DNA from: Armatimonadota bacterium
GTDB taxonomy: Bacteria; Sysuimicrobiota; Sysuimicrobiia; Sysuimicrobiales; Sysuimicrobiaceae
Assembly: GCA_025059775.1 (NCBI GenBank)
Contig: JANXCW010000005.1
Coordinates: 1 to 64,000 of the forward strand
DNA: 64,000 bases
Direction: 5' to 3'
This document shows, in pieces, positions 1 to 17,218 of the stretch. The position numbers and the translations under genes are program-made. How positions within the stretch are numbered: position 1 is the first letter of the stretch; every line of letters begins with the position of its first letter. The notes under the pieces are model-generated. The model was given only the letters and a program-made list of their open reading frames with translations. It was not told the origin of the DNA and made no database searches.

Positions 1-1095
1 GCGGAAGCTGTGGACGTCCAGCAACTTGTCCTGCACTACGCTGAGACCCTCCGACGCGTGCTCTTCAAGGGCCGCGGGTTCCGCCCCGAGGAGGTCTACG
101 TGGACTACACGCGCGGCACCAAGGCCATGTCGGCCGCCGTGGACTACGTGGCCTTCGACATGGAACTCGCAGGTGTCAGCTACATCCTCGGACAACTCGA
201 CGAGCAGGGGCGGGCGATCAGCGGCACCGAGCGGATCTTGAGCTTCCAACCGCTGGAGCTCCTCTTCCGCCGGTCCTGGAGGTCCCTGGTGGAGCTGTTC
301 AACACCGGGCACTTCGCCACCGTCCTCCAGCACGTTTCTCGCGTCCGGGAGCGGACCGTCCGGGACGAGCACCGGAGGCGGCTCGACTTCCTCACCGAGC
401 TGAGCCAGGCCTGCCAGGCATGGGAGCTCCTCGACTACCGGAGGGCGTGCGAGCACTTCCGGGCCTGCCTCAAGGAGTACCGGGACCTCACGGAGAGCCT
501 GGCACCGTCCGGTGAGGTGCCGCGCGCCAGCGAGGTCGTCCACAGACTCTGGAAAAGCCGTTGCACCGGTCCCGCGTGCGGGTGCGGGCTCCCGCTGGAC
601 GCGCTGACCTCCATCGACCTGCTAGCCCACGCAGAGCGTCGTGCAGCCGGCCAGCTCTACGACGTGGCCGTGCTCCTCCTGTACCGTCTGCTGGAGTACC
701 TCGCGCAGCACAGGCTCCACAATCGAGGCCTCCGTGCTGACCGAGTCGACCTGGACCGGTTACCCGATGCCGTCCGAGGCCAGTGGGTGAAGCGGACAGA
801 TCCGGACGGGTCACTCAAGCTCGGAATGGTGGAGGCGTTCCAGTTGCTGGCCGACCTCGGCGACCCGCTGGGTACCCGATTCATGGACCTCTACGGGGCG
901 ACCGACTCCAAGCTACGGGCCTACCTGCAGAGCCGCAACCTGTCGCCCCTGGCCCACGGCTTCCAGCCGGTCGGTCCGGAAGTGTACGAAAAGCTCCGAG
1001 CACTGGTCACCGAGCAATTCCTGGCAGAGTCCGTCCCCCAGTGGGAACACCATCTGGGTCAGTTCCGCCTCCCGCTTCTCGACCCACACCCATAG
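1..1095 (+). CDS. CARF-HEPN CRISPR-associated protein, TIGR02710/Cas02710-like (5' partial)
   Basis: The reading frame is open to the left edge, so the N-terminus is missing; GTG at 10 is only the first in-window start. Numbering from that GTG, residues 32-41 read DYTRGTKAMS, the ligand-binding signature of CARF domains in the Cas02710 family. The segment AHAERRAAGQLYDVAVLLLYR matches the conserved start of that family's C-terminal half. R309-NLSPLA-H316 is a HEPN R-X6-H ribonuclease motif in the usual context (RNxSxLAHG). Known CARF-HEPN proteins are RNases switched on by cyclic oligoadenylate from type III CRISPR complexes. No cas gene or CRISPR array lies downstream, so any partner must be to the left or elsewhere. 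The ligand and RNase activity here are inferred. Confidence 0.8.
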   Translation, partial: AEAVDVQQLVLHYAETLRRVLFKGRGFRPEEVYVDYTRGTKAMSAAVDYVAFDMELAGVSYILGQLDEQGRAISGTERILSFQPLELLFRRSWRSLVELFNTGHFATVLQHVSRVRERTVRDEHRRRLDFLTELSQACQAWELLDYRRACEHFRACLKEYRDLTESLAPSGEVPRASEVVHRLWKSRCTGPACGCGLPLDALTSIDLLAHAERRAAGQLYDVAVLLLYRLLEYLAQHRLHNRGLRADRVDLDRLPDAVRGQWVKRTDPDGSLKLGMVEAFQLLADLGDPLGTRFMDLYGATDSKLRAYLQSRNLSPLAHGFQPVGPEVYEKLRALVTEQFLAESVPQWEHHLGQFRLPLLDPHP

Positions 1096-1524
1096 TCCCG
1101 TCAAGAACCCGTGGAGAGGGGTGGAACACCTGGAAAGCCCGATCGAACTCAGCGTGACTTTGCTGGCGGATCTCGCGGAGTGCGTGTGCGACTACTAGGC
1201 AACCCGACCGCCCCACTCCGGGCCACCTCCGAAGCGGTACCGGGTCCAGCTGAACGCGTGTGCCCTGGTGGCGCAGGCCGTCGGTTTGCGGCCGGTCTCG
1301 GGTCTGTCCACGGTGGGCGCGACACCTCCTCTCCACACGGTAGTGCGTGCCCAGCCTCCCTGTCTCGGCTGTCGCCCGGCCCCCGGAGGTGACGCCGGAC
1401 GGTCCGACGGACACTCGCCAGACCTCGACCGGCCTTCTTCGTGGCGGCCAGCCCGAAACGTCCTCGAACTCCGGGGTACAGCCCGGACGGTGCCCCGGCT
1501 GTGCGCCGGCCTTAGAATCGGGAT
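1096..1524. other. 429-base gap with one short ORF
   Basis: No convincing gene is visible. A 26-codon ORF (1121-1198, GTG start, stop TAG) sits behind a purine-rich GAGAGGGG and begins VEHLESPIELSVTLLADLAE, which is protein-like but matches nothing I know. The same frame stays open after its stop to about 1552, so it could be the head of a gene cut by a nonsense mutation, or chance in GC-rich DNA. A candidate promoter lies at the right end. Confidence 0.4.
1490..1518 (+). promoter_or_regulatory. Candidate promoter of the RDD gene, possibly leaderless
   Basis: The -10-like TAGAAT lies at 1513-1518, with a weak -35-like GTGCCC at 1490-1495 after a 17-base spacer. Transcription would begin about 7 bases after the -10, at the GTG start (1525), leaving no room for a ribosome-binding site. 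The -35 matches consensus at only three positions. Confidence 0.4.
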
Positions 1525-2061
1525 GTGGACTCTGTGGTCCGCCTCCTGGTAGTGCTGCTGGTGGTGGAGCTGGCCGTGCTGGCCTGGGTCCTGACCGGTG
1601 CCCGTGCCCGGCTGGAGGCCCGGCGCAAGGCCTACCAAGACTGGTGGGTAGAGCTGCAGGCAGACCCCGTTCGGCGCAGGCTCTACGAGGCGCACCGACG
1701 GGCCTTCTGGCGTGCCGGCCTGGCGAGCCTGGTGGACGTATTCCTCTGTCTTGCCGGTACCGCCGCTCTTGTACTCTTGCTGGGACCGGCAGTCGGGTTT
1801 GACATCCGTGACGGAGTCTCCGACCCCGAGTCGTTCCTGATCGTGGTTGTGTGGCTGACCTGCTACTTGGTTATCGTGTTCGGCGGCTTCCGCGTATACG
1901 GTACCACCCCGGGTCTCCACCTACTCGGGATCGCCGTCATTTCACCGCAGACCGGCCGGCCTGCGGACCGCCGGCAGCTCCGGCCGCCGACCAGGTGGGA
2001 CTACGCGCGGGACCGGGTGCCCGAGTTCTTCTTCGTCCCGAAGGACGAGCTCCGCCTCTGA
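1525..2061 (+). CDS. RDD family integral membrane protein
   Basis: This 178-residue protein has a hydrophobic N-terminal helix (about residues 3-24), a charged segment, then two more hydrophobic stretches (about 67-90 and 103-122). RAGLASLVDVFL fits the R/D signature of the first RDD helix, and YGTTPGLHLLGIAV fits the G-T-P-G-K-x-L-L-G-I-x-V core of the family. RDD proteins are small membrane proteins mostly without proven function; some are tied to ion exchange. No Shine-Dalgarno sequence precedes the GTG start, while a -10-like TAGAAT lies just upstream, so the transcript may be leaderless. It converges with the minus-strand operon that ends at 2100. An overlapping ATG at 1523 is in another frame. 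Confidence 0.65.
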   Translation: MDSVVRLLVVLLVVELAVLAWVLTGARARLEARRKAYQDWWVELQADPVRRRLYEAHRRAFWRAGLASLVDVFLCLAGTAALVLLLGPAVGFDIRDGVSDPESFLIVVVWLTCYLVIVFGGFRVYGTTPGLHLLGIAVISPQTGRPADRRQLRPPTRWDYARDRVPEFFFVPKDELRL

Positions 2062-2099
2062 GACCAGCAGATCGCGATCACATGGCTCATGCCCTGGCA

Positions 2100-3039
2100 T
2101 CACCGTGAGGTAGTAATGAAGTTAGTAATGAAGTAGTGTATAGAAGACCTGATCCCTCCCCTTTCTTTTTCTTGCAGATCCGCAGCACCCAGCAGACCCG
2201 CGTCCGGACCCAAGGCAGAGGGGCGCAGACGGGGGCGGAAGGGGGTGTGAAGGTGGACCGTCAGGGCCTCCAGGCACTGCCGGTAGAAAGGATTGAGGCT
2301 TAGGCCACCCCCCAATACCACCACCTCAGGATCCACGAGGGCCTAGAGGTCTCCGAGGGAGTGCACGAGGGCTTTTGCGGCCCGGTCCACAAGCCGGATA
2401 GCCACCGGATCCCCCCGTGAGGCCAGGTCCAGAACGGAGCAAGTGTTCACGGAGGCCCCGAACACCTGGCGAGCCGCTTCTGTGAGGGCCATCCCCGAGG
2501 CCACGGTCTCCAGACACCCCCCTCCGGCCACACCCACACACCTCGCTTTCGGGACCGCAGACCGTGTGCCCCAGGTGGCCCGCGAGGCCCCTCTCCCCGG
2601 TGCGCAGCCGGCCCCCGAGCACCAGGCCTGCGCCGATTCCGGTGGAGACGGTCACGAAAGCCATGGAATCCAGACCTCGCCCCGCGCCGTACCGGTACTC
2701 TCCCCAGGCCGCGGCCTGGGCGTCGTTCAAGACCTTCACCGGGAGGCCCGTGTGGAGCCGGAACACCGCCCGCAGGTCCAGGCCCGCCCAGTCCGGCAGG
2801 ATGCGGGGGTTCGCGTGGATCACCCGCCCCCGGTGGATGACCCCGCCGCTCGCCACTCCAAGCCCCAAAGCTCCCCGCCTCCAGTCCTCGAGGAGGCTTA
2901 GGGCGGTGCGGATCACCGCCTGAGGCCCTTCCCGGACGGGTGTGGGGGCCTCCCGCCGTTCCACCACCACGCCTTCCACCACCCGGGCCGCCGCGATCTT
3001 CGTGCCGCCGATATCCACGGCCAGAACCACCGAGGGCAC
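2100..3039 (-). pseudogene. ROK-family sugar kinase (NanK/glucokinase-like), disrupted
   Basis: The N-terminal part reads AVDIGGTKIAAARV (phosphate-binding loop), followed by VLNDAQAAAWGEYRYGAG and STGIGAGLV, all typical of ROK kinases. The zinc motif begins CGCGRRG but the frame then breaks. One base fewer in the run of six C at about 2517-2522 restores CGCGRRGCLETVASG. The restored frame then meets a TAG near 2343, after ALVHSLGDL. Beyond it ALVDPEVVVLGGGLS continues the family C-terminus. Two separate lesions make a real pseudogene likelier than a single sequencing error. By context the ancestor probably phosphorylated N-acetylmannosamine or a related sugar upstream of NanE. It is the last gene of the minus-strand operon, 3 bases after the DUF4127 gene. 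Confidence 0.85.
2111..2134 (+). repeat. Tandem 12-bp direct repeat
   Basis: TAGTAATGAAGT occurs twice in direct succession (2111-2122, 2123-2134). The segment is much richer in A+T than its surroundings and lies where the RDD gene and the minus-strand operon converge, inside the extreme 3' end of the broken ROK frame. Its role is unknown. Confidence 0.85.
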
Positions 3040-14262: not shown

Positions 14263-15153
14263 ATGCGGTTTCAGGAACTCATCCTTGCCCTGGATCGGTA
14301 CTGGGCGGACTACGGCTGCGTGATCGCCCAGCCCTACGACGTGGAGGTAGGGGCGGGGACCATGCACCCAGCTACCTTCCTCCGGGCCCTCGGCCCGGAA
14401 CCTTGGAAGGTGGCGTATGTGCAGTTCAGCCGCCGCCCAGGGGACGCGCGGTACGGCGAGAACCCCAACCGCCTGGGTGCGTACTACCAGTACCAGGTCA
14501 TCCTCAAACCTTCCCCCGAGGACGTTCAGGAGGTGTACCTGCGCAGCCTGGAGGCGCTCGGGATCGATCTCCGCACGCACGACGTGCGGTTCGTGGAGGA
14601 TGACTGGGAATCCCCGACCCTGGGTGCCTGGGGCCTGGGGTGGGAGGTGTGGCTCAATGGGATGGAGATCACCCAGTTCACGTACTTCCAGCAGTGCGGG
14701 GGAATGGACTGCCGTCCCGTGTGCGCGGAGATCACGTACGGACTGGAGCGGCTGTGCATGTACCTGCAGCGGAAGAGCAGTGTGTTCGAGCTGGAGTGGG
14801 CCCCAGGGATCACCTACGGAGAGCTGCGGCACCGGGAGGAGGTGGAGTGGAGCCGGTATGGGTTCGAGCGAGCGGACGTCCAGCGGCTGCGGGCGTGGTT
14901 CGATGCCTACGAGCAGGAAGCGGGTGCGGCCCTGGAGGCGGGCCTCGTCCTCCCGGCCTACGACTACGTGCTGAAGTGCTCCCATGTCTTCAACCTCCTG
15001 GATGCCCGGGGAGCGATAGGGGTCCAGGAGCGGGCATCCCTCATGGCCCGGTGCCGTCGCCTGGCTCGGCAGGTGGCGGAGCGCTACCTCGCCCAGCGGG
15101 AGGCCATGGGGTGGCCCCTCCTGAGAGAGAGCGCGGAGGTGCGGGGTGCCTAG
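14263..15153 (+). CDS. glyQ: Glycyl-tRNA synthetase alpha subunit
   Basis: This is the catalytic class II subunit of the alpha2beta2 bacterial GlyRS. The 296 residues include [36 protein letters not shown] (motif 2 region), [19 protein letters not shown] and [19 protein letters not shown], all highly conserved. ATG 14263 is chosen over ATG 14257 because GGAGGG at 14251-14256 is then at 6-base spacing and the protein starts [10 protein letters not shown] as in the family. The end overlaps glyS by 8 bases. Confidence 0.95.
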
Positions 15154-17218
15154 GCTTCTCCTGGAGATCGGTGTGGAGGAGATGCCCGCCCGCTTCGTGC
15201 TTCCGGCCCTGGAACAGCTGGAGGTGGGACTCCGGGCGTTGCTGTCCGAGGAGGGGCTTCGGGCCGGCGAGATCCGGACCTTCGGAACCCCCCGGAGGCT
15301 GGTGCTCACCGCCCAGGAGGTGCCGGATCGGCAGGCCGACGCGGTACGCGAGGTACGGGGCCCAGCGGTGAAGGTGGCCTACGATGCGGAGGGAAAGCCC
15401 ACGCGGGCGGCGCTGGGCTTCGCGCGATCGCAGGGTGTGGCCGTGGACAGCCTGGAGCGGAGGAGCACGGAAGCGGGGGAGTACGTGTTCGCGCGGGTAC
15501 GGATCCCGGGCCGGCCCACTCGGGAGGTCCTGCGGGAGCGGTTGCCCCGTCTCATCACGGATCTCTCGTTCCCCAAGACCATGCGGTGGGGAACGCAGGA
15601 GTTGCGGTACGGCCGGCCCATCCGGTGGATCGTGGCCATGCTGGACCACGAGGTGATCCCGTTCGAGGTGGCGGGAGTACGGAGCGGCAGCACCACCCGC
15701 GGGCACCGGATCCTCAATCCCGGACCGCACGCCCTCCCGCATGCCGCGGAATACGAGCGGGTGATGGAGGAAGCCCGGGTGGTGGTGGATCACCGGCGAC
15801 GGGCAACGCAGATCCTGGAGGACGTGCGGCGCCTCGCCGCGGAGGTGGGCGGTCAGGCCCTCGTACCCACCTCACTCCTCGAGGAGGTCACCTTCCTTGT
15901 GGAGCATCCCACGCCCTTCCGGGGAGCCTTCGACCCGGACTTTCTTGGCCTTCCCCGGGAGATCCTTGTCACCGTGATGCAGCATCACCAGCGCTACTTC
16001 CCCGTGGAGCGGGAAGGGCAGCTGCTGCCCTACTTCCTCGCGGTGCGGGACGGGGACGAGGTGGGGTTGGAGCAGGTGCGGGAAGGGAACGAGTGGGTCC
16101 TGCGGGCGCGCCTGGAGGATGCCCGCTTCTTCTACGAGGAGGATCGGAAGGTTCCCCTCGCCGCTCGGTTGGAGCAGCTTCGGGAGATGGTGTTCGTGGA
16201 ACGGCTGGGCACCGTGTGGGACAAGGTGGAGCGGCTGCGGGGCCTCGCGGGGTGGCTGGCGGAACACCTCCGCCTGTCGGAGGAGGAGCGGACGCACCTC
16301 CTACGCGCCGCGGAGCTGTGCAAGGCGGATTTGGCCACCCATGTGGTAGGGGAGTTCCCGGAGCTTGCGGGCACCGTAGGGGGGCTGTACGCACGGCTGG
16401 ATGGCGAGCCGGAGGCTGTGGCGGAGGCCATCGCGGAGCACCTGCGGCCGCGCACCGCGGAGGACACCCCTCCCCGCAGCTGGCTGGGGGCCCTGCTGGG
16501 GATCGCGGATCGTGCGGACACGCTCGCGGGTTGCCTCGGGATCGGGCTTGCGCCGACGGGCTCCGCGGATCCGTACGGACTGCGTCGGGCCGCGGGCAGT
16601 CTGTTTGAGATCCTCTCCCTCCACCGGGTGCGGATCCCGCTGCTTGCCTTGGTCCGTCGGGCCCTGGGAGGGTACCCGGACCTGGAGGACCGCCTGGAGG
16701 AGATCTGGGCCTTCGTACTGGGGCGGCTGCGGGCGTGGCTGCTGGAGCGGGGATACCCGCACGACACGGTGGAGGCGGTGCTGGACGCTTCCTGGTCCGA
16801 CGTGGCGGATCTGGTGGATCGGGTGGAGGCCCTCGTCCGGTTTCGGGCTACTCCCGCCTTCGCGGCCCTGTACGAGGCCTTCGATCGGGCCCACCGCATC
16901 CTCGACCCCGCGCTCCTCTCCGGAGAAGAACCGGTGGCCGAAGACCAGGCGGAACAGGATTTGCTGGAGGCCATCCGGGCGGTACGCCCCCGGGTGGAAA
17001 CGTGCGTCTCCTCCTCGCGGTACGAGGCGGCCCTCGTGGAGCTGTCCAGACTGCGGGACCCTGTGGCGCGGTTCTTCGATGCCGTCTTCGTCAACGACCC
17101 GGATCCACAGGTCCGCCGCCGCCGCCACACCCTGCTGGGGGAGGTGGTGCGGCTGGTGCGGGAGATCGCGGACCTCTCGCGGCTCGCGGTGGCTCCCGGG
17201 GAACGGAAGGCGGAGTGA
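15146..17218 (+). CDS. glyS: Glycyl-tRNA synthetase beta subunit
   Basis: The 690-residue beta subunit binds tRNA-Gly and completes the alpha2beta2 enzyme. It begins [19 protein letters not shown], the family signature. [24 protein letters not shown] and a [20 protein letters not shown] segment follow. The C-terminal half holds an HD-like domain ([20 protein letters not shown]) and a [19 protein letters not shown] segment, with a DALR-like anticodon-binding tail. The GTG start lies inside the end of glyQ, so the two are translationally coupled. Confidence 0.95.

Follow-up and report, generated by a model that had tools for sequence, protein, structure and literature searches.

A Cas02710-type CARF-HEPN ribonuclease gene truncated by a contig start probably belongs to a type III-A-like CRISPR-Cas island

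The window, that is, the whole stretch of 64,000 nucleotides analysed here, corresponds to C5:1-64000 of the genome G000, which is 99.2% complete in 59 contigs (G and C numbers denote genomes and contigs, and L numbers denote loci). The first gene is an open frame of 364 amino acids whose 5′ end is also open (Table 1). The position of this cas02710 gene should be noted, since the first base of the window is the first base of contig C5 and the gene is thus cut by the assembly. The sequence-only reading had placed the gene at the window edge, which is right as to position, but the edge is a true contig start at which the assembly has truncated the gene. Alignment to the full-length protein from G007 indicates that about 70 N-terminal residues (codons) are missing.

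Table 1. Features at the left end of the window (nt, window nucleotides; aa, residues of the truncated protein)
Feature	Position	Strand	Evidence
cas02710/TIGR02710 CARF-HEPN ribonuclease gene	1..1095	+	profile matches and alignment; 5′ end beyond contig start
CARF core motif DYTRGTKAMS	nt 103..132, aa 35-44	+	sequence; conserved in the 4 of 5 aligned proteins covering the region
Csm6 6H domain	274..492, aa 92-164	+	PF22205
Csm6-type HEPN domain	613..1014, aa 205-338	+	PF09670
HEPN catalytic motif R-x6-H, RNLSPLAH (R312...H319)	nt 934..957, aa 312-319	+	invariant in 5 of 5 aligned proteins
Wrecked PD-(D/E)XK nuclease gene	1121..1500	+	blastn, tblastn and codon check; intact L014 homologue PF12705 51.1 bits
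RDD-type membrane protein, last gene of the island	1525..2061	+	PF06271 29.5 bits (cut-off 24.1)
Right border of the island	2062..2187	.	blastn; alignment to the island-free site G001:C4 starts at 2188

The window protein matches TIGR02710 over model positions 47-378 of 384 with 158.1 bits (E = 2.9e-46), and the score exceeds the curated cut-off of 83.9 bits although the protein is truncated. The Csm6 HEPN (PF09670, E = 3.1e-30) and Csm6 6H (PF22205, E = 7.7e-9) families of Pfam are also matched. The PADLOC models for Csx1 and CARF-HEPN proteins match with E values down to 9e-60, the best model being Csx1 (200.6 bits). These TIGR02710, Pfam and PADLOC scores place the match far above chance. 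In an alignment of five TIGR02710-type proteins (A1), four of which reach the CARF core, Arg312, Ser315, His319, and Gly320 are invariant in all five, and the core pattern D/N-x-T-x-G-x-K-x-M/L is kept in all four that cover it. The window protein is 22-26% identical to the three full-length relatives in the alignment. The second half of the CARF domain, with DYTRGTKAM, is readable, and the first part, including the ligand pocket, lies beyond the contig start. The coexistence of the CARF motif and the HEPN motif R-NLSPLA-H in one protein of the Cas02710 type, read earlier from the sequence, is thus borne out, and the window gene is an added member of the already known TIGR02710 CARF-HEPN kind. 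A sequence search of solved structures gave two weak matches to TPR-like proteins and none to a Csm6 or Csx1 structure. With the five-protein alignment as query, 14 pattern matches were found among viral contigs, none of which was confirmed as a relative.

The searches made revealed no other CRISPR component in the window. Neither an array-like repeat nor the CRISPR repeat of G000 itself was found within the 64 kb, and searches with Csm1, TIGR02710, RAMP, G007-like Cas10, and Cas1 matched the window gene alone, in agreement with the earlier statement that cas genes and arrays are absent to the right. The cas02710 gene is followed by a PD-(D/E)XK nuclease gene and an RDD-type membrane protein gene, and the island ends there. 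Relative to an intact copy (described below), an in-frame stretch of 288 bp is missing from the window PD-(D/E)XK gene, an in-frame stop comes directly behind this loss, and about 200 bp more are missing thereafter, which makes the gene a pseudogene. Beside the island, a gene at 2100-3039, which we take by eye to be a ROK-type sugar kinase gene, is apparently split by a frameshift; its orthologue in G001, a genome of the same genus, is a single frame over the portion compared.

The intact copy comes from JANXBY010000068.1 (Armatimonadetes bacterium isolate SKYB51; L014), the one confirmed close relative among 118 pattern matches in the named genome collection. It carries the same cas02710 gene (94-95% identical), likewise truncated where its contig begins, at the equivalent of window position 298. 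Downstream lie an intact PD-(D/E)XK gene, encoding a protein of 236 residues (PF12705, 51.1 bits), and then an RDD gene. The Cas4 model gives this nuclease only 20.6 bits, against a cut-off of 65. Over the 795 nt compared, the two cas02710 genes differ at 11, 7, and 24 sites in codon positions 1, 2, and 3, respectively (NG86: dN 0.035, dS 0.117). This excess at third positions, in a single sequence pair, suggests that cas02710 may still be under selection. The RDD genes of the same two loci give a similar ratio (dN 0.046, dS 0.155).

That the start of C5 is a foreign fragment joined to G000 by misassembly or contamination is favoured by the position of the gene at a contig end, where wrong joins are common. 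This is almost certainly not the case: cas02710 is succeeded by the nuclease (here a remnant) and RDD genes in the same way as in JANXBY010000068.1, a paralogous island exists on C1, and, from base 2188 on, G001 and the right flank are collinear.

What lies to the left can be sought at the other contig ends of G000. The first 150 bases of C5 overlap none of them and have eight short, chance-like matches inside other contigs. Contig C9 carries in its first 1,861 bases (C9:1-1861), on the minus strand, a CARF-HTH pseudogene, a small gene, and a cas6 gene open to the contig end. The CARF-HTH gene, found with a CARF-HTH query as the second copy in the genome (C9:1132-1861, minus strand), contains one stop, spans two frames, and lacks the N-terminal part. 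The readable part of cas6 is open throughout. To the left of the island, conservation begins with a tRNA-Thr gene at C9:2009-2083, whose 3′ end points towards the island. The longest word common to C9 1851-2090 and window 2041-2400 on either strand has 8 bases; the tRNA end is not repeated at the right border, and we make no claim of integration at tRNA-Thr.

The relation between C9 and C5 is given by G001. A protein encoded at window 15146-17215, which we name GlyS-like by eye, was used as anchor, and the contig G001:C4 was then compared with C5 and C9. By filtered tblastx, window 2.7-15 kb corresponds in order to G001:C4 from 65,965 down to 53 kb, and C9 2.2-19.7 kb corresponds in order to 68,119 up to 85.5 kb, leaving 2.1 kb between the flanks, as against 1.4 kb by DNA alignment, in which the flanks reach about 66,493 and start again from about 67,919. 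The genes flanking the island on C5 and C9 are thus collinear on one contig of a same-genus genome that is devoid of the island; the G001 segment at 65.0-69.5 kb has no significant match to the RDD, CARF-HTH, PD-(D/E)XK, or cas02710 proteins (best E = 0.26). Since the C1 island has its left and right ends on that contig, the ends that remain to be paired in G000 are C9 on the left and C5 on the right. C9 and C5 most likely adjoin each other on either side of the island, judging from flanks that lie 1.4 kb apart on a single G001 contig. Genomes G002-G005 are collinear with C5 over part of 9.6-17 kb and have no C9 match in the stretches compared, so that G001 is the sole genome behind the adjacency. 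No read or contig bridging C9 and C5 was seen and the two contig ends have no overlap, which counts against the interpretation presented below. In G002, a CARF-HTH fragment (G002:C51:30534-30662) is found on a contig with genes like those right of the island in the window, presumably glyS, recO, mgtE, and ribD, as named by eye. This case illustrates that synteny with an island-free relative can show which contig ends belong together.

The content expected between the two ends can be estimated from the complete locus on G007:C12, where the order is CARF-HTH, small gene, cas6, Cas10/Csm1, a 156-residue frame, Csm3, a 332-residue frame, Csm5, cas02710, Cas1, and a cas2-like frame. The G007 Cas10/Csm1 scores 598.8 bits, with SGGDD and HD motifs recognised by eye, and Csm3, Csm5, cas02710, and Cas1 score 193, 94.8, 128.3, and 333 bits, respectively; the 156- and 332-residue frames occupy the places of csm2 and csm4 and are assigned by position. 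From the coordinates, the segment of G007 equivalent to that from the C9 end to the C5 start comprises 6,350 bases. If the assembly gap in G000 matches it, the gap would span about 6.4 kb, and the G007 arrangement predicts that cas10/csm1 and the csm genes, RAMP genes among them, lie there. The sequence-only reading had suggested, as one of two options, a type III locus just to the left of the window. This is well supported by the cas6 gene at the C9 end, by the C9-C5 synteny through G001, and by same-family genes beside RAMP genes on one contig in G007 and G055 (in G055:C36, an array, cas02710, and RAMP genes form one run), but an intact cas10 was not found.

The search of the assembled genome for cas10 or another cyclic-oligonucleotide synthase, which had been proposed as a check on that reading, came out against it, with a Cas10 HD fragment as the one hit and neither RAMP nor SMODS; the sequence that would decide the matter, however, falls in the gap of the assembly. 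The RAMP family PF03787 and SMODS (PF18144) each gave no match in G000 at E up to 1, so a SMODS-type CD-NTase, as in CBASS, was not found in the genome. Csm1 (TIGR02578) gave six sub-threshold matches, the best of which (C1:198739) is the cas10 fragment; the other five were taken for other HD proteins, since they match only model positions 3-85. The full G007 Cas10 as query gave four matches, two being pieces of the N-terminal fragment (C1:198664-199142, 57-59% identity) and two being weak ones elsewhere (15-21 bits). Other cas genes are present on C10, where a single Cas1 (C10:110411-111253, 333 bits) and, by eye, a cas2-like frame follow eight genes named by PADLOC as Cas3, Cas11a, Cas7, Cas5a, Cas7b, Cas5, Cas3b, and Cas4 (L097); Cas6 is absent among these eight. 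Eleven copies of a 30-base repeat come next (0 expected by chance), the last of which stops 19 bases short of the contig end. From the PADLOC-named genes and the 11 repeats, this is a type I-A/I-B locus with an array.

The island on C1 (L055) is of the same kind as the C9-C5 island and is mostly destroyed. Its CARF-HTH gene is open (PF09623, 155.9 bits, with a LuxR-type HTH; Csx14, 96.2 bits) and is accompanied by a small gene, a cas6 gene with a frameshift and a stop, helicase pieces, and an RDD paralogue. Likeness of its cas10 to Cas10 ends after about 160 residues, the HD region, with a frame change inside, and of its PD-(D/E)XK gene the last approximately 31 residues are left (58% over 31 residues, E = 3e-5). 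Decay has struck different genes in the two islands: CARF-HTH is kept on C1, where cas6 and cas10 are broken, while C9/C5 keeps cas02710 and the readable part of cas6 and has broken CARF-HTH and PD-(D/E)XK. This single genome thus shows a pair of related type III islands whose decay has taken different courses.

These remnants bear on a second explanation, that the C9-C5 island is a relic in which the gap codes for no active Csm complex and cas02710 is an orphan, perhaps served in trans or being lost. The gene loss in C1, namely the frameshifted and stopped cas6, the cas10 cut after the HD region, and the PD-(D/E)XK gene worn down to its end, together with the two broken accessory genes of the C9-C5 island, means that the missing middle may have decayed too, and the assembled genome has neither a RAMP match nor an intact Cas10. 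However, the C9 cas6 is open as far as it can be read, cas02710 is intact over 364 codons with a third-position bias relative to L014, and assembly alone could hide the middle genes. Four genomes of the family have contig ends in the island, five ends in all (two in G000 and one each in G002, G004, and G005, those of G004 and G005 lying inside CARF-HTH), and with ends so often repeated there, missing middle genes are to be expected. We consider a relic unlikely, though it is the most serious of the alternatives.

The distribution of the family was surveyed in 61 genomes. TIGR02710 is matched in six at E up to 0.001, above the cut-off in five (G000, G002, G007, G054, and G055) and weakly in G057, and RAMPs are matched in ten. 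Both occur together in G007 and G055 (two of the six carriers), with the genes close on one contig. RAMPs occur without TIGR02710 in eight genomes, including G001, and TIGR02710 without RAMPs in G000, G002, G054, and G057. The cas02710 gene touches a contig end in both G000 and G002, and the G057 match is a 92-residue frame 424 bases from a contig end. The closest carrier, G002, has no RAMP, Cas10, or Cas1 match. G001, in which TIGR02710 has no match, carries a different type III locus near a contig end, with Csx14-like and TIGR02221 proteins of its own (G001:C5:188-202.4 kb, L057).

G054 is the carrier most relevant to a third explanation, an effector that truly stands alone and receives its signal from a cyclic nucleotide synthase outside CRISPR. 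This single-contig genome has a TIGR02710 gene on C1 (L060:9358-10686; 157.9 bits) with both motifs, and cas1 is present, but no RAMP, SMODS, or G007-Cas10 match was obtained in it. From our own reading of translations, we take its CRISPR systems to be of types I-C and II and the neighbours of the TIGR02710 gene to be murC-like and deacetylase-like, with no adjoining cas genes. Orphan members of TIGR02710 thus seem to exist. The window gene, however, is at the end of a cas island, which by synteny has cas6 and CARF-HTH across the gap, and the related remnant on C1 still includes cas6 and part of cas10; SMODS matches were found in none of the seven genomes searched. A stand-alone effector in this sense is very improbable, and the corresponding alternative in the sequence-only reading is not needed, as the gene most likely closes the island through the C9-C5 synteny. 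What the window shows is probably a common type III effector, interrupted where the assembly breaks off; in draft genomes, a CRISPR effector may look stand-alone for just this reason.

The best explanation, which we consider probable, is that the window opens within the effector gene of a CRISPR-Cas island resembling type III-A, and that the gene product is activated in the established way. The island would consist of a left part on C9 (tRNA-Thr, broken CARF-HTH, small gene, and cas6), a middle in the gap of about 6.4 kb with cas10/csm1 and csm genes, and a right part on C5 (cas02710, the wrecked PD-(D/E)XK gene, and the RDD gene). A crRNA-guided Csm complex would meet a matching transcript, the Cas10 palm would make cyclic oligoadenylate, this would bind the CARF dimer, and the HEPN domains would cut RNA, stalling the infected cell. 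These steps, from synthesis of cyclic oligoadenylate by Cas10 through its binding by CARF to RNA cleavage by HEPN, are established for Csx1/Csm6 (PMC10702470, PMC9704534, and PMC11229360). We infer that an intact Cas10 is encoded in the gap and that its product activates the cas02710 protein. The activating ligand may be cA4, given that Csx1 is the best-scoring PADLOC model and that PMC11229360 groups cA4-activated CARF-HEPN proteins as Csx1. NE0113-type CARF proteins are predicted transcription regulators according to PMC4012209, and the CARF-HTH gene at the island start fits this prediction. Counting against the probable explanation are a 99.2% complete assembly without RAMP and without Cas10 beyond the C1 HD fragment, the similar lack of RAMP, Cas10, and Cas1 matches in the closest carrier, and the co-occurrence with RAMPs in only two of six TIGR02710 carriers. 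In PMC9676260, a Csm6-like CARF protein is reported to lack RNase activity in vitro; family likeness is thus no guarantee of activity. Both the island and its C1 twin carry broken genes, so the C9-C5 system may be active or defunct at present.

The RDD gene, which with the PD-(D/E)XK nuclease gene makes up the two accessories of this part of the island, should also be noted. Copies are found at window 1525-2061, G000:C1:202185-202703, G001:C3:92053-92571, and G002:C47:1716-2243, that is, four copies in three of eight genomes, each beside a type III island or remnant and with differing outer flanks. To judge from these surroundings, the gene accompanies the island to different sites on the chromosome (all 4 copies, 8 genomes). 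No description of RDD as a companion of type III CRISPR was found in the open-licence papers searched, and the word RDD is absent from PMC11229360. The protein is possibly an overlooked companion of type III systems. More speculatively, and we hold this to be doubtful, it could act at the membrane as a partner or effector in cyclic-nucleotide signalling, with Cas02710 as the RNase arm.

Among known systems, the window protein resembles the TIGR02710/Cas02710 CARF-HEPN ribonucleases, grouped with Csx1/Csm6, in the CARF core, the 6H linker, and the HEPN R-x6-H motif, and its relatives in G007 and G055 are encoded beside RAMP genes. The orphan gene of G054 is of the same family and has the same motifs, and differs in its setting, a one-contig genome without RAMP or G007-Cas10 matches where, by reading, no cas genes adjoin. 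The type III-A locus on G007:C12 is alike in its succession of CARF-HTH, small gene, and cas6, then cas10, csm genes, and cas02710, and its cas6 (77-78%) and CARF-HTH (77%) resemble the G000 copies, whereas the cas02710 proteins of G007 and the window are only about 26% identical. After cas02710, G007 has cas1 and a cas2-like frame, in contrast to G000, which has the PD-(D/E)XK remnant and the RDD gene in that place.
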